A stretch of DNA of 64,000 nt from the NCBI GenBank assembly GCA_025094145.1, contig JALLLS010000055.1:124001-188000 (forward strand), in the 5' to 3' direction. The DNA comes from Spinellus fusiger. Its lineage: Eukaryota > Mucoromycota > Mucoromycetes > Mucorales > Phycomycetaceae. A program made the translations under genes and the position numbers. This document shows, piece after piece, positions 3,353 through 29,107 of the stretch. The first letter of the stretch is position 1, and each line of letters begins with the position of its first letter. The notes beneath the pieces were generated by a model. The model saw only the letters and a list, made by a program, of their open reading frames with translations, searched no databases and was not told the origin of the DNA.

Positions 3353-3365
3353 CCCCCTTTTTTTA

Positions 3366-3626
<261 letters not shown>

Positions 3627-7641: not shown

Positions 7642-8013
7642 AACATCCGTCATACCTAATTCCATTCTCATTTTCTTTCTCTATTTGTTTTATATGTTTT
7701 ATTTTATATATTTCTAAAATGCATATTTGTTAGTCGTTTTTGTATTTCCTATTTCTATTTCAATAGTGAAAATAAAAGAATTGATAGAAAATAAAAGTTC
7801 TATAAAAGCTTATTCTTTAATGTATATCCAAGGATTCTTTATTTATTTTTAGGGATCTTTAGGTTGAATATCTTCTACAGAAATAATACTTTGCAGGCAC
7901 GACCTCCACTCTAGCCACATAAATCCTTGTGACTGCGAGCACTGACCAGGATCTTTTCTAGCTTATATTTGTGAATCTGATTAGCTTTATACTTCTCCCT
8001 GGAATAAGTATTT
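7642..8013. other. Intergenic, EFM7 to ITPK1
   Basis: AT-rich spacer between tandem plus-strand genes. It should contain the EFM7 3' end and the ITPK1 promoter. No distinct element was recognised. Confidence 0.5.
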
Positions 8014-9379
8014 ATGAGTACACAAGTCATAAAAACTGTGGGCTTGATCTTCACCCCTAAAAAGATAAAACAATCTGGATTTGTTGGCTTAGTGGAATAT
8101 GCAGCGTAAACATTCCATCCAGCTAAGAGGCAGCTCTAATATTCTTTGTCAGCCAGCATCAAGTTTGCGTTGTATTTATTGACCTAGACTTACCCTTGAC
8201 TGAGCAAGGACCTTTTGACCTGATTGTGCATAAAATGACAGATATCGTCAGTAAAATGAACTCTGGGGATTCCAATGCACAGTTACAATATGATAATTTT
8301 TGGGTAATGATGAATACAGCATTTCTTGTTTAATAATATCACTACAAAAAGAGATATATCCAATCTCATCCTAAAGTCATTCTCATGGATGCCTGGGAGA
8401 ACATCGAAAAAGTCCTCGATAGATCTCGTCTCTACCTTTGTTTGAAACAATACAGTGAAAGAGGGACAGAGAGAGGTTAGCATTCTCAATCCAGCCTTCT
8501 AATTCATAGAAAGAACCTCTATTCTATGTACCCAACAGTACTATCTTGAACTCTTTTGATGCATGGTCAGAAGAAGAGATCCATTTTCCTGTAAGGTTTT
8601 ATTTATTTATATTTTATCCAAATCATACCTACTTATTCTCTACTCTATAAAGGTAATATGCAAGAGATCTGTGGCATGTTCATCAACAGCATCACACCAG
8701 ATGGTAATTATTCCTTCAAAAGAAGATATGTATTTGGTTCATGGCTATGGTAAAGAGGAGCCCGTGATTCTCCAAGAATTCATTTCACACGATGGGACTC
8801 TTATTAAGGTCTATGTTTTGCAAGACAAGATCTATGCCAAAACAAGACCCTCTTTTAAGAATGAGCTAACAGACAGTGGTAAGACTAGAGAAGTAGATAT
8901 AGAATAATGTCCTAGACTCATCTATTCCAAGCACTCTATTTTGATAGTCAAACAATGCCAAAGTCATTTGCTGTCGCCATAGACCCTACCAATGATTTGA
9001 GCAAAGTACTCAGAGTCAATGGGACCAACACACCACAACTCCAAGAACAGCCTTTCTTAGACTATGATAGACTGAAAAAGATGGCAGACGATTTAAGAAT
9101 TGAGCTAGTAAGTCACTGATGCATCCTATCAACAAACAGAAGCTGTTTCTTTACACTATAACTCCACATTCTAGGGATTGACATTCTTTGGCTTTGACGT
9201 GCTTATTGAATCAGCGACACTCAAGCCCTATATTGTGGATGTTAATTATTTTCCTAGTAGGTTAATACACCACCCTTCCTACAAAAACCTACTTATCTAC
9301 TGTATATGTTTTAGGTTTTTCTAATGTACCAAACTTCCAGTCCATATTTCTCTCTATTCTTCTACAGGAGAATAAGTAG
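8014..9379 (+). CDS. ITPK1: Inositol-tetrakisphosphate 1-kinase (ITPK1 family)
   Basis: ATP-grasp kinase that phosphorylates inositol polyphosphates in the cytosolic inositol phosphate pathway. Eight exons: 8014-8105, 8153-8303, 8352-8475, 8514-8590, 8653-8878, 8932-9107, 9175-9256, 9315-9379; 330 residues, normal for the family. Recognised blocks in order: EQGPFDLIVHKMTDIV, the SHPKVILMDAWENIEKVLDR region, VICKRSVACSSTASHQM (ATP-grasp beta strand), VILQEFISHDGTLIKVYVL, KTRPSFKN, and near the C-terminus TFFGFDVLIE with IVDVNYFPSF, where the D-x-N pair binds magnesium. Intron 3 (38 bp, acceptor AAAG) and the exon 7 donor were chosen to keep phase; intron 3 is the least certain. Canonical yeasts lack this enzyme, using a different route (Ipk2/Ipk1), so its presence suits an early-diverging fungus. 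Confidence 0.9.
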
Positions 9380-9576
9380 TAGAATAAACAGTAGAATAAG
9401 TAGTAGAGACCACAAGAGTCTTATATCTTTCTGCTTCTTCCCTGTCTCTTCTCCACAAACCCCGATATACTTAAGCCACTCAAGAAGATAGTCCCAGGAA
9501 ATAGACTTTTTTTAAAATTTGGCAGTCATTCCTTTTCTTTTCTCTCTCTCTCCCCTTCACATTGACCCTCAACGCC

Positions 9577-10449
9577 ATGCCAACTGACGAAAAGAAGCGC
9601 AAGCATAAGTCTGAAAAGACTCATAAAGAAAGCAGTGAGAAGCCTCACAAGCAAAAAAAACAAAAAACAGCCAAGATTGTCCAAGTACAATCGGCTGCAC
9701 CCTCAACCTCACCTTCTTCGTCTTTCACTGAAATGGTTGTTAAGCTGTACCTTCACTTGGCACCCATGTGGTCAGGAAAAATAATGGAAGGAATCAACGA
9801 ACAACTCAATGCCTTTTTGATGAAGTAAGCTTTTCTAATGAAGCAAGAGTGATGAACACTACTTTAGGTATGTCTCTGAAGTGGACGGCATTATCCTTGC
9901 CCATAGTGACATACAGCTGCCCACCAACAAAGGAAGGATTCTTCATGACTCTCCCTTTTGCCATTTCTTCATCAATGTTAAGTTTCTTGTGTGGAAGCCA
10001 ACCAAAGGCTCTCAGCTTGGTAATTTTGGATCAAAAATGAGGTGGACTCAACTCTTTTGTAGTTGGACGCATTAACTTGCAGTCACAAGATCATGTTGGA
10101 TTGTTGATCTACGGTACATTTAATGCTTCTATTCCACGCTCTCGTATACCCTCCGATCGTTATGAATGGCGTGCATCAGAAGAGGAGACAGCAGAGAATG
10201 ATTCTACCGAGGAGACAGAGAAGGAAGAGCGAAAACGAAGTCATTATGGTGAATGGGTGAACAAAAGTACAGGTGCTGCTATTGGCGGTGATAAAGGCAC
10301 ACTAGAGTTCACTGTAGAAGAGTATGTATTATATCATATTGCATCATTTTGTTGTGCGTTGTATTGGATACATGTACTTATAGGCTTTGTTTATGTTGTG
10401 TAGTATTATAGAAGCCAATGACATTCTTACTGTGGCTGGATCACTGTAG
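9577..10449 (+). CDS. RPA43: DNA-directed RNA polymerase I subunit RPA43
   Basis: Stalk subunit of RNA polymerase I (partner of RPA14 in yeast) that contacts Rrn3 during rDNA transcription in the nucleolus. Four exons: 9577-9824, 9868-10019, 10063-10321, 10404-10449; 234 residues. A lysine-rich N-terminus (nucleolar-type) precedes the Rpb7-like N-terminal domain: VKLYLHLAPMWSG, KYVSEVDGIILAHSDI, GRILHDSPFCHFFINVKFLVW. The OB domain follows with QSQDHVGLLIYGTFNASIPR and the C-terminal strand DIIEANDILTVAGSL. Human and yeast RPA43 share the HVGLL and FN-SIPRSRIP blocks. The last intron's acceptor (TAG at 10401-10403) was chosen because the next AG gives an early stop. The start is the first ATG of the frame. 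Confidence 0.88.
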
Positions 10450-10746
10450 CCCAGGGATCTTAATAAAACAAAACGCCGCCTCTCTATAGTATACAAGATC
10501 ACAACCACCATCAGTGGTAGCAAAAAAAGTTAAATCCTAGAACAACTGCAGACCCCACCTACAATTCATGTTCATTCTTATCCATTGATATGCATGTCTC
10601 TGGAACCACTTTATACAAAATAAATATAATGTAAAATATATGCATTAAAATATATGTCCTTGGCACTATTCTGAGTTTAGCCTATACAATGTTTAACAAA
10701 AAGCATCGTTGTCACTATTAATATCTGTTGATATTCGCAGATCCAC
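10450..10746. other. RPA43 3' flank up to the palindrome edge
   Basis: Single-copy AT-rich DNA; its sequence does not recur beyond the right arm. No gene seen. Confidence 0.5.
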
Positions 10747-10754
10747 TATTATAG

Positions 10755-10955
10755 CCACACTATCAAGACCATCGAGGTGTTGCACAACCACTCAATGGCA
10801 TGAATCGAGCTTTTGCGGCTATACTTACTCTCAAATGTTTGTTATTAAAGAAACAGCATGTCATTCGCAAGGAGTGGCATGCTCTATATGAGCGAGAGAC
10901 GCTTATTCATTTTTGTGGGGGCGATTGCATGCGACAGTTATACCAAGTCTTCTAA
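10755..10955 (+). pseudogene. Unidentified coding-like fragment at outer end of left arm
   Basis: A 66-codon open stretch beginning PHYQDHRGVAQPLNGMNRAF and ending CGGDCMRQLYQVF before a TAA stop. Composition (CGGDC, WHALYERE) looks protein-like rather than random for such AT-rich DNA. It has no start codon and sits directly at the arm edge, preceded by TATTATAG that could be a splice acceptor. I do not recognise the family. It could be an exon of a gene truncated when the arm boundary formed. The same frame is present in the right arm. Confidence 0.3.
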
Positions 10956-13914
10956 AAGACCATACTACATACATTGCCTCGTACTAAAGATATAAAGTTT
11001 AAACTCGTATGTCATGTTTATGCAGTGTGAAGGATTTGGATTCTCAAGAGTGCGTATACGAGGCAACTTTTAGTCTAGAAAGAGCAGTCCAAGTTCAACT
11101 TTGTTTAGTAATGGTAAAATAAAATAATAATCCTGTGATAAACAATGATTGCTTGACTCTTGTACTAGAGTCTGCCAAAAATTACTATCAGAGCATTGAG
11201 GTGTGATGGATGATCAGTCCACGGCAGCTCAACTGTCAAGGAGAGTAGTCATCAAATCCACCCAACTTTACAATGTCTGCTTAAACAGGTCTACAGGGCA
11301 CGATGTAGTTTCCAAAGAGAGTTGTTTTTGGTGATATAGTCCCGGTAAACTAATCATTTATAAAAGCACATTTATAATTTCTATTAAAAAAACCACAACC
11401 ATTTTCCTAGTGATATCTGATTTCAGTCTTTAGTCTGTGTAAATAGGTTTCAAGAGAGGAGTAGTGCAAGGAAAATGAGGGTACTATAGGATGCACTGGA
11501 GAAGAGTGAATGAGTTTTGATAGCAGATGGAAATGCACCGATGGTGTCTACTGTCTTAAAGGCAGTGAAGTAAAATAAAATAAAGTAAGACTGTGGTTGA
11601 GTCTAATGATGACTAGACTTTGTAGTAATGATCATTGTCGTTGAATCGTAATAAAGCAACAGACAATTCGATGAAAAGTATAACCATTAGGCTTGCTAAC
11701 ATTACACTTTATATATGAATTTAACAAATAAGCATCACAGAAAACAACTCACATTGGGCTTACACATAAGCAGGCATTTGAAAGGTACTATCAGACTATT
11801 GGCTTAATGTGAAGACCCCTCTTTGACGGGTATGTTCTTATTATATTAATAATGATTTATTTCTATTTTCTACTCTACACTATAGTTAGTGGAATTTTAG
11901 AAAGACAATATATATATATATAACATAATCATATAATAGTCGAAAATGACTTGGCACTTCAAGGATGAGTCTCTCTTCTTCAAAAGATGTAAAGAAGTTA
12001 TAATAAGATAAAGAAAAAAAGAAAAAAGAAAAAGACAATTTTGATCGCTAGTTTATAGTTTTTTTTAAAAAAGGAGTCTATCTGTTAGATTCGTGACTTC
12101 ATCTGCTTCGATGGAGGAAACCCCCCACCTAAATGAATTTTTAAAATAAAATAAAATAAAATAAAAAACAGCAACAAAGACAACAACAACAGTAGCAAAA
12201 TTAAAGCTAACACAAAGGTTTATCTTTTGGTAACATATTCTATGATTCCTTTGGACTTATTGAATTTAAAGGAAGCAGTAGTATAGGAATATTTTCATAA
12301 TATACATGTATGTGATGAGTTCAGCAGACAAGAAAGATCCTATCATGCCATCAGTTTAAAAGGAGATTCTAACTATATAGTCGGAGTGTTACTCACAACC
12401 ATACACCAAGTACTGGCTATGGATAAGATGAATAGCACTGTACATTTTCTGCCCTTTTTTCTTTTCTCTTGTTGTGATAAACGTAGTCTATAAAACTAGA
12501 TAGTTCCTCATATGAGTATTGATCAATGTAGGCGTATTTGAATAAGAGCTATTATTTGTATAGAGATGGTGCGTATTTGACAACAGCAGAGGAATCGGCG
12601 AAAAGAAATTATCGGCATTATGTAAGTCTACAGCTAACCCTCTCACTCTATTACCTCTCTCATACAACCAGACAAGCCAACAGTAGTTTAATAGCTCAGA
12701 GAACACATATATCCAATGGATTTAATAGATTGGTTTAGTTGTTTTTTCATTTATATTTATAAATAAAAACTCACATTGATTGTATTGACAGTGTTTGATA
12801 TTGCAGCCTCAATGAGCAAGCCACAAGCTGATGGCTATATCACAAAGCTGATAGTAATAGTCACTTTCAATCGCCTGTAATTGTGTTAAAAAAAACTTGG
12901 TTACAGCCTTTGTCAATTAACAAACAGTAAGTCTATTTGTTGAAACAAAATCAGACAGTGACAGATAGAATGAGCATTCTCTGTGGATAAAGTGGAAAAG
13001 AGAAAAGAAAACTTAGACGTTTGTGATCAACAAATGGATGCTCTATAAAACTGCCTCAATTGTCATCCAGAAAGCTTCCTATTTCATCATATAATATTTC
13101 TTTCTATGTCTGTACAGTGACATGAATATTACATTTCATCTGGGTCCACAAAATCTATGTAGTTCATAGACTACTGATATATATGTGATGGATTCTCTAG
13201 TTATATTCACAAAGAAAAGTTAATTTCCAGCTGACTCATTTGTTTGCTATCATTAATAGCATCATTTTTGGTTTTTAGTTGTGAAAATGAAATTTCTAGC
13301 TAGCCTGGCCTTATTATAGAGATAAAAGTATAAATGCTAGAGAAGGTGTGTACAATAAGGTATGCTATTTTTTTTCCTTCCAAACCTTAGGTCCATCATC
13401 TGCATAGGTTGTGGTTACCGAGTTTTATGTATGTCCCGCGTGAGTTTACAAGTCATTATTAGCTGATACATGATCTCATCCCCCTTATCATATTGACTCT
13501 TTCTGTATCTTACGTTCAATTCAAGATATACTTTTCTTATTTGTAAATATAATTTTTTTAGAATAATATACATCTATGGTCAAGTGTTGCCGTTGGGTTT
13601 TTATTTATTTATACACAATAGGGTTTAAATATTAGCATATATTTATGATAGACCGGACTTGATGGACTTTATACAAATATTGTTTATTAATTGCTTTAAA
13701 GTGTCTCGAATAATCTCTTCTTTTCAGATATACCCTTACTATCTAGTAATGTTTTTTTAATATAAAGAAGAAATGGACGCTACTCGATGGTGTCTTTATG
13801 TATCAAGTCTGTATGATTAAATTTATATAATTCAATAGAACACATATACAGAAGGTATATATATGTACTTTAGAACAGGCACAATCTTGGTGATATCTGT
13901 ACCTTACTCTATTA

Positions 13915-13940
13915 TTCTTTCTTTCTTTCTTTCTTTCTGG
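13915..13940. repeat. (TTTC)n microsatellite, left arm
   Basis: About six TTTC units, mirrored as AAAG units near 21541-21565 in the right arm. Confidence 0.85.
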
Positions 13941-14118
13941 ATTAATAGTAATGAATACAGTTTAAGCTATGTTGTGTAGAAAGATATCTTACGTTTAAAT
14001 TTATCAGTTTATTAAAACCTACAACTTTGATATAGCTCCAAAATTAAAATAGAAAATCTCATCAAGAGAACGTGTGTATGAATAAATTAAATTAAATTAA
14101 ATTAAAATGAGAAAGTTC

Positions 14119-14574
14119 TTAAGCCCAGTTCCACCAGACCTTGACACGACCCTGATCACGGTTAGCAATGCGGTCGAAAGCAACAGGACTGAGATCAATA
14201 GCTCCCCATTTGCATCCAGGGCAGGTGTCAGTCTAAGAAGAGAAGAGTGAGTGCCCATTCGATAAAACGTCAATTTTTACATATCAACTTACAATCTTAG
14301 CTCTGACATATCCCTTGGGACCCCATACGTTGATGTACTTGTTGCACTTGGAGTTATTGTTGGGGTTAGCACCGTTGGCCATTTGCTGCCAGTTGATAGC
14401 AACAATAAGTTCAGAGTCATGGTGGAGCTGACCGCAAGAGCCAAGACCGACACCGGGGTTGTAGTAGGTGGCATCACCATAGATGTTGCCGCGCTTTTCA
14501 GCATCAGAAGCAGAAGCTATTTGAGCAGCAGAAGCAAGAAGGAAGAAGGAAGCAAAGCGAACAATGGCGTACAT
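14119..14574 (-). CDS. Small secreted double-psi beta-barrel (expansin/RlpA-like) protein, left copy
   Basis: Two exons on the minus strand, 14574-14293 and 14232-14119, encode 131 residues. Residues 1-22 are a clear signal peptide. A Lys-Arg at 27-28 is a likely Kex2 processing site just before the mature start GNIYGDATYYNPG. The fold markers are GDATYYNPGVGLGSCG, the DTCPGC motif (98-101) and DLSPVAFDRIA, typical of barwin-like/RlpA-like double-psi beta-barrels such as small fungal expansin-like proteins. Four cysteines (47, 77, 98, 101) could form two disulfides. Such proteins act outside the cell, often on walls or as protease inhibitors; the exact role cannot be read from sequence. An identical copy lies inverted at 20906-21361. 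Confidence 0.88.
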
Positions 14575-14580
14575 GTTTAG

Positions 14581-14666
14581 AGAGAAGAAGATGATATTGA
14601 GTTTGAGATAAGTATCTATAGAGTTTGAGATAAGTATCTATAGAGTTTGATGACAGTGCTTATATA
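14581..14666 (-). promoter_or_regulatory. TATA box and 22-bp tandem leader repeat, left copy
   Basis: TATATAAG at 14659-14666 (minus) lies 85 bp upstream of the start codon. Between it and the ATG is a 22-bp unit (CAAACTCTATAGATACTTAT and two more bases) present twice plus a partial third copy, probably in the 5' UTR. It mirrors 20814-20905. Confidence 0.6.
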
Positions 14667-15544
14667 CTCTTTTACCTTTTCCGTGGTTTAAAAACATCAG
14701 AAAAAGCTACATTTACAAATCTATCTCGATTGCTTGTTCTATGCAGAATAATTTCACTTGAAACTTAGGTGAGAGATGATTGGATTAGAGTATGATTACT
14801 TTCCATTTTTGGAATAATATAGGGGCTTTACAGACAACAATTAAAGGGCTCTATAATAGGCCTGTAGTGTTCAATTGAAGTATATTGGGATCTACTTTTC
14901 TAACATTGACATTGTTTATTTTCTTGTACTTTGTTATATTAAATCTCTCTTCTCTACATATAAAAGGCTGATAGCAGACTCAAGCTATAGTGTTGGCTAT
15001 AGGAACATACATGAAATTTAAATTGACAGTTGTGTATATCATATCATATCATATTTAATTAACTCCAACATGATTTTTTTATTCATTAAAAACACAAGTC
15101 TTCTGTTCATTGTCTTGTCCATGTTTCTTTTTTTCATTTAATTTAATTGAACATTAGTTCTCAATTTTCTATTACTTTACGTGTAACCTAAATTGACTGG
15201 CAGCCGTTTGTTTCTTTTCTATTGTGTATCTTTGGGATCAGATCAAATGAGGAAATATTTTTTAATTTTTAAATGAATTCCGGGGATGGTGCCAATTGCT
15301 TTGTTGATTTTGGTATAATTTACATCTATAGTTAATAAGAGCGCTGTAAGCAAAAGGTGTAATAATTTTAGCAGTTTGAGGAAAGTAATATAAGACGATA
15401 GAATGCAGTAAAACATACTTGGATAAAGACACAGATACCAATATGATATAAGATAGATTTGAATGAAAAAGACTTATGATATCTAAAGTTTCAACTAAAC
15501 AAAAGAATATGAGAAAACAGTTGTTTATCAATGACTGTATGGCT

Positions 15545-15645
15545 CTCATATATATATCTCATATATATCTCGTATATATCTCATATATCTCTCATATATC
15601 TCTCATATATCTCTCATATATCTCTCATATATATGTATATATATG
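15545..15645. repeat. TATATCTC-type tandem repeat, left arm
   Basis: About ten imperfect units of CATATATCTCT type. Mirrored at about 19835-19935. They underlie spurious Ile/Ser/Tyr-rich frames. Confidence 0.85.
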
Positions 15646-17085
15646 TATAAAACAGTACAAATTAAAATGGTACTCTCTAATATTAAATCTAAAACTCTAT
15701 CATAGAGCTAGAGATCTCTTTCGTGTTAAATTATTTATCCGGTCTAATCAGTTACACCGAAAGATCTTTCTATTTATTCTACTATTACACACTGGAGAAA
15801 TATGTCAGTGTCAGTACTTTTGGTACTCGACTCTCTCGTTTATTTTCAAGATTTTCTCTTGCGTGATTGTCACCTACATTAAGACCCAAGTTCAATACTA
15901 GGAGGTTTATCCAATCATTTCTAGAAGCATTAATCAAGCCATTGACAATATTCTAATAGTTCTTTTTTTGCTAAATATATCTACTTAATATAAATAAACA
16001 TTAATATCTAAAGAGCCAATGTTATATGCACATTAAAAGCTATTGAATATTATTAGTTTCTCAGTAAAATGTAACGGATATAGCATCAATGTATTTTGTG
16101 AAAACAATGGCCGGGTGTTTTGACAAACCAATTTTAATAGATATATCATCTTGCATCTAAAGAATTGTGTATGGTCATTCTGTTTATGAAAATAAAAATA
16201 AAAAGCCGTATTTAGATAAGATAGACATCGTATTACTACATAAAATTAGACTCTAACGCGTCACTTCTAGTCTTACTACATTTAAAATAAAATACAACCT
16301 TATTATTTTTTGTTCATATATAAATCACCTCTCAAGGCTTATGGAAAATGGTTTGGATACAGATATAATGATAAAAATACCAAACAAAGTATTGTAATTT
16401 GTCTTTCTATTACTTTGTGTGTGTGGAAATAGACAAGACCTTAAATAAACTATTATAAAATGAAAATATTTCAAGTCATTTTTGGTGAAAATCAAAACCT
16501 ACAGTTGTAAATAAACAGTCTAATGCCATAAACAGGTATCTTTATCACAAGTATTTCACAGCCATATTCCCAGGTTCTATTGATATATCACAGTCTTTGT
16601 ATTGTTACTATCTGCTAAACTCAATCTCAAAGCAATTCAAAAAGAGATGTTTATTACTTCACGTCTTTGTAGTCCCAGGCTATGACACTTTTTATTATGT
16701 TTTTGCCTTAGTACTCAAATAATTTTTGAGAATACGATTTAGTCGTACAACAATTTACTTTCTTTTAGGTTATTTTCGCTTATTTTGTCGTCAATGGCTT
16801 GTTAGTCCAAAGGAAATCCGGTCAGTTAACAGGTAGTTAAACTCTGATGTTTATTATTTCATAACATTGTGTCTTTTATAATTTTCTACTACTAGTATTT
16901 AGCTTCAGGGGTATGTTATTGAATACTACAAACTATCATCATCCCTTAGTATTCAATGGCATCCCCTTCTCAGTTTAGTAGTAGGAGTTGGTATTTCCAA
17001 AAAGGGTTGTAGTTCCAATTATAGAAAATGTCTTTACGACAATTTTCATTTATTTATTATTAATTCTCAAAGCTGATAACTTATA

Positions 17086-18393
17086 CAGTCACACAACATT
17101 AGAAAGGGTACGACCTCATAAGTTATAAAATTTTAAACATGATTCATCTTCCTTTTACCAAAGAATCACATTCCATTAAATAATCTCAACTGTTAAACAT
17201 AGAATATTCAACTAAAAACTCTATAGTTTATAATAAGCTGGAAGAAAGAGAGCAATAGGGTGTTTACTGACTTAAATAAGAGAAATACTCCATGGGTAGT
17301 ATTTCAAAGGTCATTGGCATTAGTAAGACTACTGGTACACTTCTACCTAAGCCTCGTTCTGGTGCACCAAAAAAACTAAACGAGAGAGACCTCATACAGC
17401 TTAAGGTTATTCTAAGAGGCATCCCATTTGCCTCGTATAACTATATAATTTTGGAGCTTAAGGCACATGAAATAATCATTTGTAGAGCAACATTAATCAA
17501 ATACATACACCAGATTGGGTCTGGTTCCTACTTTTCAACACACAAGCCAAGGCTTTATGAATAAAACATGAAAAAAAGACTTCATTGAGCGAAGGAACGG
17601 GTCAATTGGACCCTTAAGGACCAGAGACGCGTTGTATGGTCTGATGAGTCACTGTTCGAAGCAGAAGGTTACCAGAGAGGAGAAAAAGTAATTCAAAAGA
17701 TTGGAGAAAGATACAAGGCTGATCATATCATACCTACAACAAAATAGGGGAAAGTTAGCATAATTATTTAGAGCTGTTTCTTGGCTGGTGAATTTGGGCC
17801 TTTGGTCTTTGTTGATGGCACTGTAAATCAAAACATATATGTCAACATTTTGGCAGGAAAATTTCTGCCATGGTTCATTGAATTGTATCATAAAGTAAGA
17901 TAGTGAGTTTCTGTTACAATAAAAGGGTGATATATGTCATACTGGGGACTATGCCAGAGGGTGGAAAGAGACGCATCAAATTAAGGTGCTTTGAGTACTG
18001 GCCCACACAATTCTCTGACTTGAACTCAATTGAACACATATGATGAGCCTTGAAAAGACAAATTGAAGAAAAAATATTATCTAGTACCAATGTATAAAGT
18101 GTGAGGGCTCTACTTGCAGAAGAGTGGGAGAGAGTTGGTGTTGAACTTACACAACAATACATTCAAAGTATGGACGGCAGGTGTCAGGCAGTTATTGATG
18201 CCAAAAGTGGCCTAAAAATATTAAATAAAACCTTTTATATATAATAATATAAACAATATGTTAAACCAACTTTGTGTTGAATTTGAGGTCATTAGTATGT
18301 ATTTTGAAGCCGTAGCCTTTTCATATATAAAGCATATTCTTTCTCAGGATTTCAAAAAAGAAAAACTGTACCCTTTCTAATGTTGTGTGACTG
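17086..18393 (+). mobile_element. Tc1-like element at the exact centre of the palindrome
   Basis: Terminal inverted repeats of about 26 bp begin CAGTCACACAAC at 17086 and, in reverse complement, at 18393. TA dinucleotides flank both ends (17084-17085 and 18394-18395). Total length 1308 bp, standard for Tc1 elements. The inside (17112-18367) is the only sequence in the 10.7-24.7 kb block that is not mirrored. It encodes a broken transposase on the plus strand. Removing the element and one TA leaves a perfect palindrome centred on TTATATAA. Confidence 0.85.
17292..18230 (+). pseudogene. Degenerate Tc1 (DD34E) transposase in the central element
   Basis: Recognisable pieces lie in order but in different frames with stops. 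A helix-turn-helix-like start (17292-17564) carries KPRSGAPKKLNERD and a TLIKYIHQIG second helix region. Then comes a first catalytic segment with VVWSDESLFE around 17635. Next is VFVDGTVNQNIYVNIL near 17805. Last is a C-terminal block near 17990 with FSDLNSIEHIWALKRQIEE carrying the catalytic glutamate. Canonical Tc1 has PQSPDLNPIEHLW here. Stops and frameshifts mean it cannot make an active enzyme. Confidence 0.75.
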
Positions 18394-19834
18394 TATAAGT
18401 TATCAGCTTTGAGAATTAATAATAAATAAATGAAAATTGTCGTAAAGACATTTTCTATAATTGGAACTACAACCCTTTTTGGAAATACCAACTCCTACTA
18501 CTAAACTGAGAAGGGGATGCCATTGAATACTAAGGGATGATGATAGTTTGTAGTATTCAATAACATACCCCTGAAGCTAAATACTAGTAGTAGAAAATTA
18601 TAAAAGACACAATGTTATGAAATAATAAACATCAGAGTTTAACTACCTGTTAACTGACCGGATTTCCTTTGGACTAACAAGCCATTGACGACAAAATAAG
18701 CGAAAATAACCTAAAAGAAAGTAAATTGTTGTACGACTAAATCGTATTCTCAAAAATTATTTGAGTACTAAGGCAAAAACATAATAAAAAGTGTCATAGC
18801 CTGGGACTACAAAGACGTGAAGTAATAAACATCTCTTTTTTGAATTGCTTTGAGATTGAGTTTAGCAGATAGTAACAATACAAAGACTGTGATATATCAA
18901 TAGAACCTGGGAATATGGCTGTGAAATACTTGTGATAAAGATACCTGTTTATGGCATTAGACTGTTTATTTACAACTGTAGGTTTTGATTTTCACCAAAA
19001 ATGACTTGAAATATTTTCATTTTATAATAGTTTATTTAAGGTCTTGTCTATTTCCACACACACAAAGTAATAGAAAGACAAATTACAATACTTTGTTTGG
19101 TATTTTTATCATTATATCTGTATCCAAACCATTTTCCATAAGCCTTGAGAGGTGATTTATATATGAACAAAAAATAATAAGGTTGTATTTTATTTTAAAT
19201 GTAGTAAGACTAGAAGTGACGCGTTAGAGTCTAATTTTATGTAGTAATACGATGTCTATCTTATCTAAATACGGCTTTTTATTTTTATTTTCATAAACAG
19301 AATGACCATACACAATTCTTTAGATGCAAGATGATATATCTATTAAAATTGGTTTGTCAAAACACCCGGCCATTGTTTTCACAAAATACATTGATGCTAT
19401 ATCCGTTACATTTTACTGAGAAACTAATAATATTCAATAGCTTTTAATGTGCATATAACATTGGCTCTTTAGATATTAATGTTTATTTATATTAAGTAGA
19501 TATATTTAGCAAAAAAAGAACTATTAGAATATTGTCAATGGCTTGATTAATGCTTCTAGAAATGATTGGATAAACCTCCTAGTATTGAACTTGGGTCTTA
19601 ATGTAGGTGACAATCACGCAAGAGAAAATCTTGAAAATAAACGAGAGAGTCGAGTACCAAAAGTACTGACACTGACATATTTCTCCAGTGTGTAATAGTA
19701 GAATAAATAGAAAGATCTTTCGGTGTAACTGATTAGACCGGATAAATAATTTAACACGAAAGAGATCTCTAGCTCTATGATAGAGTTTTAGATTTAATAT
19801 TAGAGAGTACCATTTTAATTTGTACTGTTTTATA

Positions 19835-19935
19835 CATATATATACATATATATGAGAGATATATGAGAGATATATGAGAGATATATGAGAGATATATGAG
19901 ATATATACGAGATATATATGAGATATATATATGAG
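19835..19935. repeat. GAGATATA-type tandem repeat, right arm
   Basis: Mirror of the TATATCTC tandem repeat at 15545-15645; about ten units of ATATATGAGAG type. Confidence 0.85.
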
Positions 19936-20813
19936 AGCCATACAGTCATTGATAAACAACTGTTTTCTCATATTCTTTTGTTTAGTTGAAACTTTAGATA
20001 TCATAAGTCTTTTTCATTCAAATCTATCTTATATCATATTGGTATCTGTGTCTTTATCCAAGTATGTTTTACTGCATTCTATCGTCTTATATTACTTTCC
20101 TCAAACTGCTAAAATTATTACACCTTTTGCTTACAGCGCTCTTATTAACTATAGATGTAAATTATACCAAAATCAACAAAGCAATTGGCACCATCCCCGG
20201 AATTCATTTAAAAATTAAAAAATATTTCCTCATTTGATCTGATCCCAAAGATACACAATAGAAAAGAAACAAACGGCTGCCAGTCAATTTAGGTTACACG
20301 TAAAGTAATAGAAAATTGAGAACTAATGTTCAATTAAATTAAATGAAAAAAAGAAACATGGACAAGACAATGAACAGAAGACTTGTGTTTTTAATGAATA
20401 AAAAAATCATGTTGGAGTTAATTAAATATGATATGATATGATATACACAACTGTCAATTTAAATTTCATGTATGTTCCTATAGCCAACACTATAGCTTGA
20501 GTCTGCTATCAGCCTTTTATATGTAGAGAAGAGAGATTTAATATAACAAAGTACAAGAAAATAAACAATGTCAATGTTAGAAAAGTAGATCCCAATATAC
20601 TTCAATTGAACACTACAGGCCTATTATAGAGCCCTTTAATTGTTGTCTGTAAAGCCCCTATATTATTCCAAAAATGGAAAGTAATCATACTCTAATCCAA
20701 TCATCTCTCACCTAAGTTTCAAGTGAAATTATTCTGCATAGAACAAGCAATCGAGATAGATTTGTAAATGTAGCTTTTTCTGATGTTTTTAAACCACGGA
20801 AAAGGTAAAAGAG

Positions 20814-20905
20814 TATATAAGCACTGTCATCAAACTCTATAGATACTTATCTCAAACTCTATAGATACTTATCTCAAACTCAATATCATCTTCTTCTCTC
20901 TAAAC
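20814..20905 (+). promoter_or_regulatory. TATA box and 22-bp tandem leader repeat, right copy
   Basis: TATATAAG at 20814-20821, then a 22-bp unit at 20831-20852 repeated at 20853-20874 and begun a third time, then a CT-rich leader to the ATG at 20906. Seen directly; promoter role inferred. Confidence 0.6.
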
Positions 20906-21361
20906 ATGTACGCCATTGTTCGCTTTGCTTCCTTCTTCCTTCTTGCTTCTGCTGCTCAAATAGCTTCTGCTTCTGATGCTGAAAAGCGCGGCAACATCTA
21001 TGGTGATGCCACCTACTACAACCCCGGTGTCGGTCTTGGCTCTTGCGGTCAGCTCCACCATGACTCTGAACTTATTGTTGCTATCAACTGGCAGCAAATG
21101 GCCAACGGTGCTAACCCCAACAATAACTCCAAGTGCAACAAGTACATCAACGTATGGGGTCCCAAGGGATATGTCAGAGCTAAGATTGTAAGTTGATATG
21201 TAAAAATTGACGTTTTATCGAATGGGCACTCACTCTTCTCTTCTTAGACTGACACCTGCCCTGGATGCAAATGGGGAGCTATTGATCTCAGTCCTGTTGC
21301 TTTCGACCGCATTGCTAACCGTGATCAGGGTCGTGTCAAGGTCTGGTGGAACTGGGCTTAA
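20906..21361 (+). CDS. Small secreted double-psi beta-barrel (expansin/RlpA-like) protein, right copy
   Basis: Exons 20906-21187 and 21248-21361 encode 131 residues, the same protein as the left copy. Signal peptide, Lys-Arg at 27-28, GDATYYNPG, DTCPGC and DLSPVAFDRIA are all intact. Promoter, leader repeats, the 60-bp intron and 3' flank are duplicated too, so both genes should be expressed alike. The palindrome therefore doubles the dose of a secreted protein. Whether both copies are transcribed is unknown. Confidence 0.88.
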
Positions 21362-24300
21362 GAACTTTCTCATTTTAATTTAATTTAATTTAATTTATTC
21401 ATACACACGTTCTCTTGATGAGATTTTCTATTTTAATTTTGGAGCTATATCAAAGTTGTAGGTTTTAATAAACTGATAAATTTAAACGTAAGATATCTTT
21501 CTACACAACATAGCTTAAACTGTATTCATTACTATTAATCCAGAAAGAAAGAAAGAAAGAAAGAATAATAGAGTAAGGTACAGATATCACCAAGATTGTG
21601 CCTGTTCTAAAGTACATATATATACCTTCTGTATATGTGTTCTATTGAATTATATAAATTTAATCATACAGACTTGATACATAAAGACACCATCGAGTAG
21701 CGTCCATTTCTTCTTTATATTAAAAAAACATTACTAGATAGTAAGGGTATATCTGAAAAGAAGAGATTATTCGAGACACTTTAAAGCAATTAATAAACAA
21801 TATTTGTATAAAGTCCATCAAGTCCGGTCTATCATAAATATATGCTAATATTTAAACCCTATTGTGTATAAATAAATAAAAACCCAACGGCAACACTTGA
21901 CCATAGATGTATATTATTCTAAAAAAATTATATTTACAAATAAGAAAAGTATATCTTGAATTGAACGTAAGATACAGAAAGAGTCAATATGATAAGGGGG
22001 ATGAGATCATGTATCAGCTAATAATGACTTGTAAACTCACGCGGGACATACATAAAACTCGGTAACCACAACCTATGCAGATGATGGACCTAAGGTTTGG
22101 AAGGAAAAAAAATAGCATACCTTATTGTACACACCTTCTCTAGCATTTATACTTTTATCTCTATAATAAGGCCAGGCTAGCTAGAAATTTCATTTTCACA
22201 ACTAAAAACCAAAAATGATGCTATTAATGATAGCAAACAAATGAGTCAGCTGGAAATTAACTTTTCTTTGTGAATATAACTAGAGAATCCATCACATATA
22301 TATCAGTAGTCTATGAACTACATAGATTTTGTGGACCCAGATGAAATGTAATATTCATGTCACTGTACAGACATAGAAAGAAATATTATATGATGAAATA
22401 GGAAGCTTTCTGGATGACAATTGAGGCAGTTTTATAGAGCATCCATTTGTTGATCACAAACGTCCAAGTTTTCTTTTCTCTTTTCCACTTTATCCACAGA
22501 GAATGCTCATTCTATCTGTCACTGTCTGATTTTGTTTCAACAAATAGACTTACTGTTTGTTAATTGACAAAGGCTGTAACCAAGTTTTTTTTAACACAAT
22601 TACAGGCGATTGAAAGTGACTATTACTATCAGCTTTGTGATATAGCCATCAGCTTGTGGCTTGCTCATTGAGGCTGCAATATCAAACACTGTCAATACAA
22701 TCAATGTGAGTTTTTATTTATAAATATAAATGAAAAAACAACTAAACCAATCTATTAAATCCATTGGATATATGTGTTCTCTGAGCTATTAAACTACTGT
22801 TGGCTTGTCTGGTTGTATGAGAGAGGTAATAGAGTGAGAGGGTTAGCTGTAGACTTACATAATGCCGATAATTTCTTTTCGCCGATTCCTCTGCTGTTGT
22901 CAAATACGCACCATCTCTATACAAATAATAGCTCTTATTCAAATACGCCTACATTGATCAATACTCATATGAGGAACTATCTAGTTTTATAGACTACGTT
23001 TATCACAACAAGAGAAAAGAAAAAAGGGCAGAAAATGTACAGTGCTATTCATCTTATCCATAGCCAGTACTTGGTGTATGGTTGTGAGTAACACTCCGAC
23101 TATATAGTTAGAATCTCCTTTTAAACTGATGGCATGATAGGATCTTTCTTGTCTGCTGAACTCATCACATACATGTATATTATGAAAATATTCCTATACT
23201 ACTGCTTCCTTTAAATTCAATAAGTCCAAAGGAATCATAGAATATGTTACCAAAAGATAAACCTTTGTGTTAGCTTTAATTTTGCTACTGTTGTTGTTGT
23301 CTTTGTTGCTGTTTTTTATTTTATTTTATTTTATTTTAAAAATTCATTTAGGTGGGGGGTTTCCTCCATCGAAGCAGATGAAGTCACGAATCTAACAGAT
23401 AGACTCCTTTTTTAAAAAAAACTATAAACTAGCGATCAAAATTGTCTTTTTCTTTTTTCTTTTTTTCTTTATCTTATTATAACTTCTTTACATCTTTTGA
23501 AGAAGAGAGACTCATCCTTGAAGTGCCAAGTCATTTTCGACTATTATATGATTATGTTATATATATATATATTGTCTTTCTAAAATTCCACTAACTATAG
23601 TGTAGAGTAGAAAATAGAAATAAATCATTATTAATATAATAAGAACATACCCGTCAAAGAGGGGTCTTCACATTAAGCCAATAGTCTGATAGTACCTTTC
23701 AAATGCCTGCTTATGTGTAAGCCCAATGTGAGTTGTTTTCTGTGATGCTTATTTGTTAAATTCATATATAAAGTGTAATGTTAGCAAGCCTAATGGTTAT
23801 ACTTTTCATCGAATTGTCTGTTGCTTTATTACGATTCAACGACAATGATCATTACTACAAAGTCTAGTCATCATTAGACTCAACCACAGTCTTACTTTAT
23901 TTTATTTTACTTCACTGCCTTTAAGACAGTAGACACCATCGGTGCATTTCCATCTGCTATCAAAACTCATTCACTCTTCTCCAGTGCATCCTATAGTACC
24001 CTCATTTTCCTTGCACTACTCCTCTCTTGAAACCTATTTACACAGACTAAAGACTGAAATCAGATATCACTAGGAAAATGGTTGTGGTTTTTTAATAGAA
24101 ATTATAAATGTGCTTTTATAAATGATTAGTTTACCGGGACTATATCACCAAAACAACTCTCTTTGGAAACTACATCGTGCCCTGTAGACCTGTTTAAGCA
24201 GACATTGTAAAGTTGGGTGGATTTGATGACTACTCTCCTTGACAGTTGAGCTGCCGTGGACTGATCATCCATCACACCTCAATGCTCTGATAGTAATTTT

Positions 24301-24522
24301 TGGCAGACTCTAGTACAAGAGTCAAGCAATCATTGTTTATCACAGGATTATTATTTTATTTTACCATTACTAAACAAAGTTGAACTTGGACTGCTCTTTC
24401 TAGACTAAAAGTTGCCTCGTATACGCACTCTTGAGAATCCAAATCCTTCACACTGCATAAACATGACATACGAGTTTAAACTTTATATCTTTAGTACGAG
24501 GCAATGTATGTAGTATGGTCTT

Positions 24523-24723
24523 TTAGAAGACTTGGTATAACTGTCGCATGCAATCGCCCCCACAAAAATGAATAAGCGTCTCTCGCTCATATAGAGCATG
24601 CCACTCCTTGCGAATGACATGCTGTTTCTTTAATAACAAACATTTGAGAGTAAGTATAGCCGCAAAAGCTCGATTCATGCCATTGAGTGGTTGTGCAACA
24701 CCCCGATGGTCTTGATAGTGTGG
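24523..24723 (-). pseudogene. Unidentified coding-like fragment at outer end of right arm
   Basis: Mirror of 10755-10955: the same 66-codon frame on the minus strand, with the A/G difference silent for the encoded Arg. Family not recognised. Confidence 0.3.
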
Positions 24724-24731
24724 CTATAATA

Positions 24732-25049
24732 ATGTTAAAGTGATAAAAAGAATGTCTTAGGATATTTTAAATGTATATTTTCTTCTTTAGATTCACAATT
24801 TTCTTAATAATTCTATAACTTTATGAATTCATTAGATAGAGACAGAAATATCAATACATAAAGATGATAGGGTTTATAATAAAAATAGTTTTATTTTTAG
24901 ACCACTTTGTAGCTACTGTGACTATCCTTGGCATCTATGACAGCCTGACATCTCCGCTCCATGCCAGCAATGAGAGTGTATGTTATTTCCTTTGATATTT
25001 TGCCCTATTCCAGAATAGGGACAGTCTAACTTTTTCTTGGTGGAATATA
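24732..25049 (-). mobile_element. Tc1-like relic A, first half (interrupted)
   Basis: Minus-strand remnant of a Tc1-like element. The segment near 24911-24985 (CATCTCCGCTCCATGCCAGC) is clearly homologous to 27495-27535 in relic C and to 35875-35915 in relic D. The element is cut at 25049 by insertion of element B and resumes at 26743. Its left part starts right where the palindrome ends. Confidence 0.65.
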
Positions 25050-25188
25050 CACTATTTTCACTTATTATTGTCGCACTTTTAGAGAAAAATATGTCGCATT
25101 AATTAATTAAAATTTGGCATAGTAAAAGATTTAAAACTGGCATATTCTAAGTACTTGAGGTTTTCTTACATTTTACTTTTCTTAAAAA

Positions 25189-26508
25189 ATGAATAACATT
25201 GTGCACGGAGACGGCCAAGGAAATATCTATAATGATGAAGGCATGGCCGTTACAGTAGTGGAGATGGAGGTAGACGAGGAGACGTACCTCATTGAGACGG
25301 TTACAAATTTCGGGATGTACCTTGACCTCAAACCACCCGAGAAGCCAGAAAGAAGAACTGTACAACAATCCGTAGACAAAGATGTCAATACAGAAGAGGA
25401 TAACAGAGCTCCTGGTATCCACAGGCATTACAAAGATTCCGAAAAAGAGCAGTTGTTTGTATTGATTTATGAAAGGGGTATGAGCGTCAGAGCTGCTGCG
25501 CTGAAACTTCAAATCCACCCACGCACTGCTCAGCGATGGTACTCGAACGATCAGCAGAACCCTCAGACATTCATTGCCAGAAAAGAAGGTAGTGGAAGGC
25601 CAGTTGGTAGACCAGCACTACTTGACGATAGCCATAAAAGATTTTTGGTCGATTTATTGGACGATCAGCCCTCTTTAGTCCTGGATCAAATGATGGAGAG
25701 TTTGAGAACGTCTTTTATTGATTTAGAGATATCGAAAACAGCTCTCTACAATTTTGTCACCAAAAATTGTAAGATCAGTCTGAAAAGAGCCCATTTTCAT
25801 TCAGTTGATCGTAATAGTCCTGAAAAGATCAAGAATCGAAAGGAGTGGGTACAGAAATGGATGGAGACAGACATGGACTACATGAGCAACTGTGTCTTTA
25901 TAGATGAGGCGGCATTCCACATCAACATGAAGCGTACTTTTGCTTGGTCAAAAGTAGGTACTTGTGCAGTAGTAAAAGTACCAAGAACGAGGGCTAAAAC
26001 AACAACCATCCTGGGAGCAACATCTGCTCAGGGCATTGTCAATATAAAAGTAAGACGGCCTCGAATGTTGCCTGTTTCAAAGAAGAGAAGAACTACTGGA
26101 TCTGGTGGGCCTTCTCAAAAACAAAGCAAAGGCACTGTTACTGGCCACTATATCAATTTCTTGAGCGATACAATGGATGTCATGGACAATTTTCCAGATG
26201 TCTTCAAGGATAATTACTTGATTATGGACAACGCCCCCATCCACATGAATGAAGACATTAAAAGCTTCATTGAAGGCCGTGGGTACAAGTGTGTTTATCT
26301 TCCCCCTTACTCACCAGAGTTGAATCCCATTGAGCAATTCTGGTCTGTTTGCAAAAGCAGGTTAAAAAGAGAAAGACTCTTGAAAGAAGAAACTCTGTCA
26401 TCTAGAATCGCCGATGCATCTAACCAAGTTCTTCTCGGTGACCTCAGAGGGTTTTGCAAATACTCTGTCGATAGATTTGAGGATTGCTTACAAGAGAAGC
26501 CTCTTTAA
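25189..26508 (+). CDS. DDE transposase, IS630/Tc1-mariner superfamily, full length
   Basis: Intronless 439-residue transposase that should cut and rejoin element B at its TA-flanked ends. An N-terminal acidic stretch (1-80) is followed by a helix-turn-helix at about 95-118 (GMSVRAAALKLQIHPRTAQR) and a second DNA-binding block to about 215. The catalytic domain has D239 in FIDEAAFH, D347 in YLIMDNAPIH and E382 in YSPELNPIEQFWS. There are 34 residues between the second D and E, the DD34E spacing of Tc1. All catalytic residues are intact and there are no stops. A basic insertion at about 285-315 (RRPRMLPVSKKRR) is longer than in classical Tc1 and may be a nuclear localisation signal. Confidence 0.92.
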   Translation: MNNIVHGDGQGNIYNDEGMAVTVVEMEVDEETYLIETVTNFGMYLDLKPPEKPERRTVQQSVDKDVNTEEDNRAPGIHRHYKDSEKEQLFVLIYERGMSVRAAALKLQIHPRTAQRWYSNDQQNPQTFIARKEGSGRPVGRPALLDDSHKRFLVDLLDDQPSLVLDQMMESLRTSFIDLEISKTALYNFVTKNCKISLKRAHFHSVDRNSPEKIKNRKEWVQKWMETDMDYMSNCVFIDEAAFHINMKRTFAWSKVGTCAVVKVPRTRAKTTTILGATSAQGIVNIKVRRPRMLPVSKKRRTTGSGGPSQKQSKGTVTGHYINFLSDTMDVMDNFPDVFKDNYLIMDNAPIHMNEDIKSFIEGRGYKCVYLPPYSPELNPIEQFWSVCKSRLKRERLLKEETLSSRIADASNQVLLGDLRGFCKYSVDRFEDCLQEKPL

Positions 26509-26642
26509 AAATAAAACATTTATGTCGCATTTGTCGCATCCAACTTATACGCCATCTTTTAATTTATTAATGCGACAAGTTTTCTTCCAAAAGTGCGACA
26601 TATTTTTTTCCAAAAGTGCGACAATAATAAGTGAAAATAGTG

Positions 26643-26742
26643 TACCATTTCCGAAAAGTAATGTCGCATTCACTTGTCACATCTGCGTATATATTGTATT
26701 ATAAATATTTATGAAACGCGACATTAATTTTTGGAAGTAGTG
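26643..26742. repeat. 100-bp MITE-like block at right end of element B
   Basis: Begins TACCATTTCCGAAAAG and ends, in reverse complement, CACTACTTCCAAAAATTAAT. The two ends share the core TTCC-AAAA-TAATGTCGC inverted. Flanked by TA on both sides. Either a subterminal part of element B or a separate tiny non-autonomous relative inserted beside it. Confidence 0.5.
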
Positions 26743-27296
26743 TATACTCTTCTGTCTTTTCTAATGAATTTTTCAAGATGAGCCCATAAACGCTCTATAG
26801 AATTGAGATCTAGACTTTGCGAGGGCCAGGGAGAAATAGTTTCCACACCATTTAATATCTTCCATTCTCGAGTCTTTTTTTTTACTCGTACGGGGTCTAG
26901 CATTGTCCTCCTATAGACGATAACTGACTACAAAGTATAGAAAAGAGACGCTTGAGTTTAGGGCAGTAGTTTTTTCTCAAAATATTGATATAATTGTTGG
27001 AGTTTATCCTACCCTCCACTATGATCTACCTCTCAGCACCCTCTCCACTAAAACAGTTATATACCATCGCACCATTGCCTCCAAACTTCCTTGTTTCCAG
27101 GATATTCTTAGGATAGAAGGCCGTGTTGTGCTGCCTCGACCTGAGTAGATTTCACACTTAGCACCCGGTAGATAATGGTTGAGTGAGTCTAATTTATGTT
27201 ACACTTCTTATGCATCTCACGGGTCTCGGTGAGGATGTTTACAGTGTTGGATGAGTTAGACATTATAAGAGAAAAGGTATATGTTATTTTAATATA
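26743..27296 (-). mobile_element. Tc1-like relic A, second half
   Basis: Continuation of relic A after element B: reverse-strand transposase remnants around 26775-26830 (GAGCCCATAAACGCTCTATA) match relic C near 27650-27665. Degenerate, with stops. The far end (27230-27270, GTTTACAGTGTTGGA) is shared with relic D at 36025-36045. Confidence 0.6.
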
Positions 27297-28622
27297 CAGT
27301 GGGTTTCAAAAGAATAAGGAAGATTATTTAAATTTCGATATGCTTCTGTAATAGGAAATACTTATTCTTTGTAATAAAAACACACTAAACACACAGTAGA
27401 GACTTGAAATTGGATGAAGTATAAAGTCAACAGTATAATATATAAATATTTATTGGGTAGAAACACTAGATACTAAGGGGTTTCACCCTTGGCCTCTATC
27501 ACAGTCTTGCATCTCCGCCCCATGCTGGCAATAAGAGTGTCTGTGGTGTTCTTGGGAATATCCTTCCATTCATTTAACAAGAGTACCTCCAAATCTTAGA
27601 GATTACTTTTTGGGGTCATTCTCATTTTTATTGACCTGTCAAGCTCCTCCCACAAATGCTCTATGGGGTTGAGGTCGGGGCTTTGTGAGGGCCACCCCTT
27701 CATAGTAGCAATGTTCTCTTGTGCCTTCCACAACCTGGACCCTTTACTCTTGTGGCGGATGGAATTGTCCTATTGAAGAACTTAATAAACCTATGGATTT
27801 AGTGCCTTGAGTCGAACCAACCCAAGGCAGTAGTTATCCTTTAAGATTTCAATGTATCTTTTGCTGTCTATACTGCCCTTCACAGGCACCAACCTTCCAA
27901 CACCTTCACTAAAGAAAGAACCCCACACCATTAAACTACTGCCACCAAACTTCATAGTGGGCTTGAATTTCTTTGGGTGCAGCTCCTCCTTCTTTCTTCG
28001 CACCACTCTGTTGAAGTTGTTGGTCCTCATCAACTAGTACTTTAACTCATCGGATCAGATGACCGCCTTCCAGTCTTCCTCAGTCCAAGCAAGCCTCAAA
28101 TTCCTGTACTTATTAGTGAAGGAAGGTTTCTTAACCACCTTGAAAGAAAACAGGACAATCTTCATCATTTTTCTAAAAGTGCTCATGCACACTTTGGTGG
28201 TCATCTGCTTGCAAAGCTAATTGATTATCTGAAATGAATATCTTTCTAAATTGTGTCCAATCTCTCTCGTCCCTCTAACTAAGAATGGGCCTACTCCCAG
28301 TGCTTCCTTTGGCCTTGAAATATCTATTCTTTATATATCTCTTTACGATACGGGAAATTGACTGCTTACTAACTCCAAACCTAGCAGAAATAGAGACATG
28401 ACTGGTCCTATTTACGGTGTTCTCTTGAGCAATGAGACAGAGGGTGGTCATCAATATTTATTTTCCCTGTTTCCAAAATGTCTTTTTATTTTTTCGGTGG
28501 TGTTAGATGAGGTAGAAATTAGAGTATAACTGATAAATAAAGAGTTTTTTTTTTAAAAAAAAATTCAATGGGAAAACTATAGTATAGATTTGAAATGTCC
28601 CTTATTTTATTGAAAGCCACTG
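27297..28622 (-). mobile_element. Tc1-like element C, complete ends, dead transposase
   Basis: Terminal inverted repeats start CAGTGGGTTTCAAAAGAATA at 27297 and, inverted, CAGTGGCTTTCAATAAAATA at 28622, both bordered by TA. Length 1326 bp. The minus strand encodes transposase remnants including FGGSSLMVWGSFFSEGVGRL (27791-28033), a Tc1 hallmark, but frames are broken. It lies directly after relic A. Confidence 0.85.
27791..28033 (-). pseudogene. Tc1 transposase fragment in element C
   Basis: Open 80-codon piece of the catalytic domain with the MVWGSF motif and KRYIEILKDNY. The flanking reading frame is interrupted by stops on both sides, so this is a remnant. Confidence 0.75.
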
Positions 28623-29107
28623 TACCACAAGAAATTTGGTGTCCTGGTTTCCTTGATGACTTTATGGCCTTTTTGGATGTCTATTCATAATCCTCATTTT
28701 ACTATCATTTCTCATTTTTCATCATTTCTCTCTGATTTGAGGTTTTGTATTTCTCTGTTCTTCTGTTTCTCATTCATTTGCATTTATTTTTTCACTTTTG
28801 TATTTGAAGTGTTTCTATGTCTATCCCATTTTTTTCAAACAATCCCATAGGGTGGCTAATATGTCCAATGTGCGAATAGCAACCAGCACCCAAAAATAAA
28901 AATATTTTGAATTGTAGAAATAGCCCAAAATTTGAAAGATCCCAAGATATTCTTTTCATCGCTTTATATCAATAAATATCTAATGATATATTGTATAGTA
29001 GGAAGCATAATAATTTAAAAGGAGTCTCTCTTCTAGAGATAAGTTTTTATACTATACAGACTTTTTAGGGAATAAAAATACATCAGCTAATAGCACAGCA
29101 TATATTA
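28623..29107. other. Intergenic between element C and CDK5RAP1 3' end
   Basis: T-rich DNA with only a low-complexity open frame. Nothing recognised. Confidence 0.5.

Follow-up and report, generated by a model that had tools for sequence, protein, structure and literature searches.

A 64,000-nucleotide stretch of the Spinellus fusiger genome (the window; contig JALLLS010000055.1 of assembly GCA_025094145.1, positions 124,001 to 188,000 of the forward strand) holds two copies of one 6.3-kb segment in opposite orientation, hereafter palindrome 1. Is this structure a genuine part of the genome and, if so, by what route did it arise? A sequence-only reading of the same DNA had described a giant near-perfect palindrome from a fungus and had put forward a very recent origin, ongoing gene conversion between the arms or an assembly artefact. 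The fungal source is borne out (Spinellus belongs to the Mucorales), and all three readings stand as candidates, with a recent duplication favoured.

Palindrome arms and their contents

Self-BLAST of the window returned one long inverted match, pairing positions 10747-17111 with 24731-18368 at 99.92% identity over 6366 columns. Since the second-longest inverted match listed (E up to 1e-10) measures 61 bp, a chance origin is not an issue. The left arm (10747..17111, plus strand) and its inverted copy, the right arm (18368..24731, minus strand), enclose a centre of 1256 bp (17112-18367), which is single-copy between the arms and not itself palindromic. The long near-identical arms are thus as had been described, but they form no closed hairpin, as a 1.26-kb Tc1/mariner centre stands between them. 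An arm-to-arm alignment with MAFFT, the check proposed along with the earlier reading, confirmed the near-identity over the whole length. Specifically, it revealed five differences instead of the four or so found by eye: two substitutions, at 10775 (A in the left arm, G in the right) and at 13015 (A in the left arm, G at 22465), the latter having been missed, and three indels of a single base, all in homopolymers (11325, 11386 and 16638). The inner ends had been set at 17085 and 18394; the arms so defined hold, but the 26-bp terminal inverted repeats of the central transposon lengthen each of them by 26 bp.

When the assembly (38.08 Mb, 197 contigs) was searched with the segment 10700-17100, the whole arm was found at exactly two places, both in palindrome 1, and the remaining matches were pieces corresponding to a gene and a short repeat (best 40 of 438 candidates). 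These results bear on the possibility of an assembly or library artefact, in which the contig would have incorporated a palindromic read, due to a missed adapter or to chimera formation during amplification, or else a false join made where an inverted repeat lies. The excerpted text of PMC6218980 lends weight to this idea, as it describes how whole-genome amplification introduces spurious palindromes into long reads and, in an assembly, inverted duplications, and how missed adapters yield palindromic reads. Moreover, all three arm indels fall in homopolymers, as long-read errors do. At this locus, however, the turn is made by a non-palindromic transposon of 1.26 kb, the inner ends fall on a transposon repeat, palindrome 1 lies mid-contig (134-149 kb of 249 kb), and no third arm copy appeared on another contig among the best 40 of the 438 candidates. 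Missed-adapter artefacts have little or no spacer at the turn and the same flank on both sides; neither feature is present in palindrome 1, with its spacer of 1256 bp and its unlike flanks. All together, we judge an artefact unlikely, though by no means negligible.

Each arm carries one intact two-exon gene, encoding a 131-aa protein with a DPBB_1 domain (Pfam, E 1e-7) which, judging from its N-terminus, is probably secreted. The left-arm gene maps to 14119..14574 on the minus strand (exons 14574-14293 and 14232-14119) and the right-arm gene, whose protein is identical, to 20906..21361 on the plus strand (exons 20906-21187 and 21248-21361); both are transcribed away from the centre of palindrome 1. 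Among solved structures, the kin of this protein include expansin-like proteins and a papain inhibitor. At its left outer end, the arm also contains a 64-aa frame with no genome match outside the two arms and no Pfam match; without matches beyond the arms, this frame gives no clue to the ancestral side.

In addition, both arms bear the same 256-bp solo LTR-like repeat, with TG...CA ends and ATTT on both sides (16786..17041, plus strand, in the left arm; 18438..18693, minus strand, in the right arm). As 26 of the 39 other matches listed in the assembly search are 95-100% identical to it, the insertion appears to be young, and palindrome 1 would therefore be younger than this insertion, if both arms acquired the repeat by duplication. 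The same observation speaks against an older palindrome whose arms have been kept identical by arm-to-arm gene conversion, since a repeat of a young family is present in both of them. Gene conversion is suggested by the extent of the near-identity, which spans the full 6.3 kb including non-coding DNA, and an arm identity above 99%, a feature of gene-conversion palindromes, is found here.

Central transposon and outer junctions

The centre of palindrome 1 lies within a Tc1/mariner element of 1308 bp (17086..18393, plus strand), which belongs to what we call family A (the labels family A and family B were coined in this analysis). The element presents the features of its class, namely terminal inverted repeats, a flanking TA on both sides, a Tc1-type transposase remnant and many copies in the assembly. 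Its transposase frame is broken, HTH_Tnp_Tc3_2 being matched weakly (E 0.0076; 16.9 bits against a cut-off of 31.5), and the long copies of family A are 76-83% alike among the best 40 of 762 first-look candidates. On these grounds we consider it an old Tc1/mariner copy. Its left and right 26-bp terminal inverted repeats (17086..17111, plus strand, and 18368..18393, minus strand) are identical to each other, and the inner ends of palindrome 1 coincide exactly with the inner ends of these repeats. The inverted homology at the boundary is a trait of the family, found in copies elsewhere, and probably predates the duplication.

We compared the two terminal repeats in 14 other family A copies, 2 of which had no readable right end and were dropped. 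The ends differ by 2-8 positions in 11 of the 12 copies kept (the count for one of them, L020, includes a shift by an indel) and do not differ in the remaining one, L019. In the central copy of the window, the identity of the ends weakly hints that one end may have been copied from the other.

The left and right flanks of palindrome 1 differ. On the left, the homology ends at 10744..10747 and gives way to single-copy DNA, the flank 10300-10743 matching only itself in the assembly search. On the right, the junction (24731..24737) consists of the arm end at 24731, 4 bp (24732-24735) and a TA (24736-24737), followed by the terminus of a family B element, whose position was set by alignment of ten other copies. 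This old Tc1-type element occupies 24738..28964 on the minus strand, with its far end placed by eye, and has two elements nested inside: a young 1.6-kb DDE_3 transposon with a 440-aa frame (25048..26644, plus strand), 92-98% identical to 39 other long copies among the matches listed, and, by eye, a further Tc1-type element at about 27297-28622. The interval 24738-28964 is, in other words, a nest of three DNA transposons. Because family B is abundant (439 first-look candidates, of which the best 40 were scored), a general association with it is uninformative, and only the presence of its terminus at the joint counts.

Elsewhere in the assembly, at C127:4826-7520, a family B element seems, by eye, to have inserted at a TA inside the right terminal repeat of a family A element. 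A nested model suggested by this locus, in which family B once sat inside the window's family A copy, was rejected: the predicted leftover family A end beyond family B did not score above chance, as about 10% of random 45-mers scored equally well, and a neighbouring second match reflected no more than the usual similarity of AT-rich DNA.

The arrangement of the centre recalls a possible aberrant transposition, whereby the right end of the family A element would have inserted into a TA beside the left end of the sister-chromatid copy, directly giving the order arm-TA-element-TA-arm. TA does flank the element on both sides, the inverted arms begin exactly there, and another Tc1-type terminus lies close to the right outer junction. 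Such an event is nevertheless difficult to reconcile with an element as old and decayed as this one, with long copies 76-83% alike, and it does not predict identical terminal repeats. We hold this route to be very unlikely.

Inverted duplications elsewhere in the genome

A search of the assembly with the DPBB protein detected 22 places, 9 of which cluster as near-identical neighbours in four groups: the pair in the window, C116:290353/297534, C116:17176/20755/28566 and C116:145588/153789. These counts rest on the protein search, since the Pfam DPBB_1 profile finds only 5 places.

The first of the C116 groups belongs to a second palindrome of 13 kb (palindrome 2, C116:287578-300527), with arms of about 6.4 kb around a spacer of about 130 bp. 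Its arms are 1 substitution and 2 homopolymer indels apart and each contains a DPBB paralogue; for the 2.7 kb of arm tested, no third close full copy was listed. Palindromes 1 and 2 have only the gene region in common, at 76-84% likeness, which indicates that they are separate events. This limited likeness also weighs against regarding the palindrome as a functional or mobile unit, for instance a source of hairpin RNA or a self-moving cassette. The recurrent association with DPBB-domain genes might suggest such a unit, but the genes face away from the centre and no further copy of the whole window arm, or of the tested part of the palindrome 2 arm, was listed; we give this idea next to no credence.

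An older paralogue of palindrome 2, 68-91% alike, is present at C179:1003-8847 and serves as an outgroup. It matches palindrome 2 colinearly across the boundary between the left flank (C116:287296-287578) and the arm. Left flank followed by arm is accordingly the ancestral order, which makes the right outer joint a new one; this comparison shows palindrome 2 to be the derived form. C179 tracks the right arm unbroken into the spacer, and its match to the left arm ends at C116:293993. There, C179 enters a Tc1-like element (8834-10169) whose terminal repeats are recognisable, though mismatched at 7 of 30 positions, and whose Tc1-type transposase frame contains stops. At the turn of palindrome 2, 16 bases match 12 of the first 16 of the terminal repeat of this element and then turn back; from this short match, the ancestor of palindrome 2 may have held a Tc1-like element. 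The element body is absent from the centre of palindrome 2, a further point against direct aberrant transposition. That the spacer is colinear with the right arm is compatible with a symmetric dicentric that broke there, or with a later flip through exchange between the arms. By hand count, about 24 bp separate the right outer joint from a diverged family-B-like terminus, whose exact position is uncertain. In addition, C179 has an independent inverted pair of its own around the Tc1-like element (7076-8215 against 11500-10361, 100% over the 1140 bp read), with inner ends that are not at a Tc1 terminus.

Further inverted pairs were found on C116, at 14663-17801/31345-28207 (99.6%) and 20539-22421/29045-27165 (99.2%). 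At 143.9-154.3 kb of the same contig, two family A elements face opposite ways, whereas the gene segments next to them share one orientation (99.1% and 99.5%). The two copies of this recent duplication (C116:143889-154277) differ in how the family A element is oriented relative to the adjacent gene segment, as if it had been flipped between its terminal repeats. Three more pairs, with no DPBB gene in the parts read, are located on C94 (2.7 kb, 99.93%), C189 (1.8 kb, 97.2%) and C18 (88-90%). C94 appears as a folded version of C189:16501-23500, in that one side matches with 100% identity along 3.5 kb, the other is its inverse and the spacer is flipped; this may be either a structural variant or an assembly fault.

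Together, the inverted duplications found outside palindrome 1 form a graded set, at 100, 99.9, 99.6, 99.2, 97.2 and 88-90% identity. Two of the alternatives introduced above are touched by these data. The folded C94 indicates that alternative folded structures exist in this assembly, which favours an artefact, whereas the stepwise divergence of inverted copies down to 88% argues against one. As for gene conversion, the flipped spacers of C94 relative to C189 and of palindrome 2 relative to C179 are what arm-to-arm exchange would give, but this genome also contains inverted repeats that are down to 99.2%, 97.2% and 88-90% identity, and conversion thus does not hold all of them identical. We consider it distinctly unlikely that conversion accounts for the identity of the palindrome 1 arms.

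As rough controls, the score lists of other protein families were inspected by eye for close like-scoring inverted pairs within 30 kb. None was seen for protein kinases (at least 153 matches, from 124 of 440 candidates) or for aspartic proteases (39 matches), and polysaccharide deacetylases (17 matches) gave one close inverted pair, that on C18. Inverted duplication thus also occurs outside the DPBB family. Loci cut around transposon matches contained no further inverted repeat of at least 200 bp above 90%. Matches on short contigs have the same scores as places on long ones (C86 and C91 against C187, C65 against C119), so the assembly may hold duplicate or allelic contigs.

Proposed fold-back origin and known counterparts

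The reading that we favour, and hold to be probable, is that palindrome 1 is a recent inverted segmental duplication produced by fold-back, that is, an inverted template switch, primed at transposon repeats. The locus would originally have comprised, in this order, the unique left flank, the arm, the old family A element and the right flank. Close to the element's right end, a stalled strand or the end of a broken chromosome would have folded back, the 26-bp terminal inverted repeats pairing, in whole or in part, across a 1.26-kb loop. Synthesis would then have copied the arm outward for about 6.3 kb, and the new copy would have been linked to the right flank, with 4 bp left before the family B terminus. 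The sequence directly shows the structure as assembled, the number of arm copies, the transposon repeat at the inner ends, the Tc1-type terminus at the right outer end and the parallel cases, whereas we infer the break, the fold-back and the rejoining. The single-copy left flank suggests that the left arm is the original and the right arm the copy; outgroup backing for the direction concerns palindrome 2 only.

This origin is favoured by the 99.9% likeness of the arms, the occurrence of the whole arm exactly twice and the position of the inner ends at transposon repeats. The copying of one end from the other would likewise leave identical terminal repeats, and both arms share the solo LTR-like repeat of a young family. 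A second palindrome of like design with a paralogous gene, derived by comparison with C179 and turning in a stretch similar to a Tc1-like terminal repeat, points the same way, as do the graded inverted copies elsewhere. Several observations run counter to it: the family A end looked for beyond family B did not rise above chance, 1 of the 12 other family A copies also has identical ends, the spacer of palindrome 2 follows the right arm and not the left, which is not the simplest fold-back picture, and the third case, on C179, has its inner ends away from a Tc1 terminus.

In each of the two well-resolved palindromes, the inner turn is located inside a Tc1-type terminal repeat, and no more than about 25 bp separate the right outer joint from a Tc1-type terminus. 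Over the 139.5 kb covered at these loci we counted 18 loose matches to family A or B termini, corresponding to a chance of about 0.8% that a random point lies within 30 bp of one (a post hoc figure from few cases). The true density of termini is higher than this count, since the scan missed the diverged B-like terminus of palindrome 2. Among the pairs on C116, C94 and C189, the sole end shown within a few bases of a family A end is C116:14663. A broader proposal, which we advance tentatively and as doubtful, is that in this fungus breaks and switches recur at Tc1/mariner termini and convert the loci of one secreted-protein family into long palindromes.

Several known systems offer points of comparison, drawn here from excerpts of the cited papers. 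Published fold-back inverted duplications have a single-copy spacer of mostly a few kb, bounded by 2-8 bp of inverted homology or by LINE/Alu sequences (PMC3907307), and in yeast, fold-back priming after induced breaks involves short repeats with spacers of 6-35 bp (PMC10622511). Palindrome 1 resembles the human and yeast cases in having arms around a single-copy spacer with inverted homology at its edges (PMC3907307; PMC10622511), and the human ones also in the few-kb spacers and the dispersed repeats at some boundaries (PMC3907307). It departs from them in its size of only 6.3 kb, its interstitial position, its occurrence in a natural genome, that of a fungus, and the Tc1/mariner-type termini at its edges. 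Inverted dimers form between repeats separated by 1.5 kb in a yeast mutant that has long single-stranded DNA (PMC10164571). These repeats are Alu sequences, and the pairing of 26-bp repeats over 1.26 kb has no direct counterpart in the excerpts of either PMC10164571 or PMC10622511, with its 6-35 bp spacers. Yeast ODIRA shares with palindrome 1 a switch at short, interrupted inverted repeats and the retention of distal DNA, but it generates an inverted triplication, as outlined in PMC4689423, whereas palindrome 1 has two copies only.

Among natural palindromes, those of Folsomia candida, and of Adineta vaga as cited with them, number several per genome, some with a change in gene copy number, as here; there they involve multi-gene collinear blocks with a wide range of Ks, in contrast to the single-gene arms of Spinellus, the newest of which are nearly identical (PMC5490193). 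Mammalian sex-chromosome palindromes also have arms more than 99% identical, but differ in that cross-species conservation, together with gene conversion, is reported for them (PMC8981503). Candida albicans provides a fungal example of rearrangement and amplification at long repeats; there, unlike in Spinellus, amplification occurs under drug selection, and the opening of the abstract makes no link to Tc1 termini (PMC7371428). A non-exhaustive literature search of titles and abstract openings recovered inverted amplification in yeast and Candida and no natural palindromes of filamentous or mucoralean fungi. The search returned no paper on the Spinellus fusiger genome and none joining a long palindrome, a fungal inverted repeat and gene conversion.

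In conclusion, palindrome 1 looks like a real inverted duplication of recent date with a transposon at its centre. It is one among several in the genome, belongs to a kind already known, and seems to reflect a repeated and probably repair-driven way of doubling genes. Two points merit closer attention, namely the recurrence at loci of a single secreted-protein family and the repeated joints on Tc1-type termini. If the broader proposal above were true, decayed transposons would drive fold-back events that double a gene family again and again in a natural genome, suggesting a route for the quick growth of a small secreted-protein family. The known fold-back duplications, as excerpted, come from patients and yeast strains, and a graded natural series from 100% to 88%, with several members at one gene family and some joints at transposon ends, would let the process be read from sequence.

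In the rest of the window, ARAGORN found no tRNA genes. A U3 snoRNA gene at 6018-6232 on the minus strand (62.6 bits) is the sole gathering-level Rfam match in the window, and positions 3364-3626 form a short-period tandem array with many self-matches at about 90% and short offsets.
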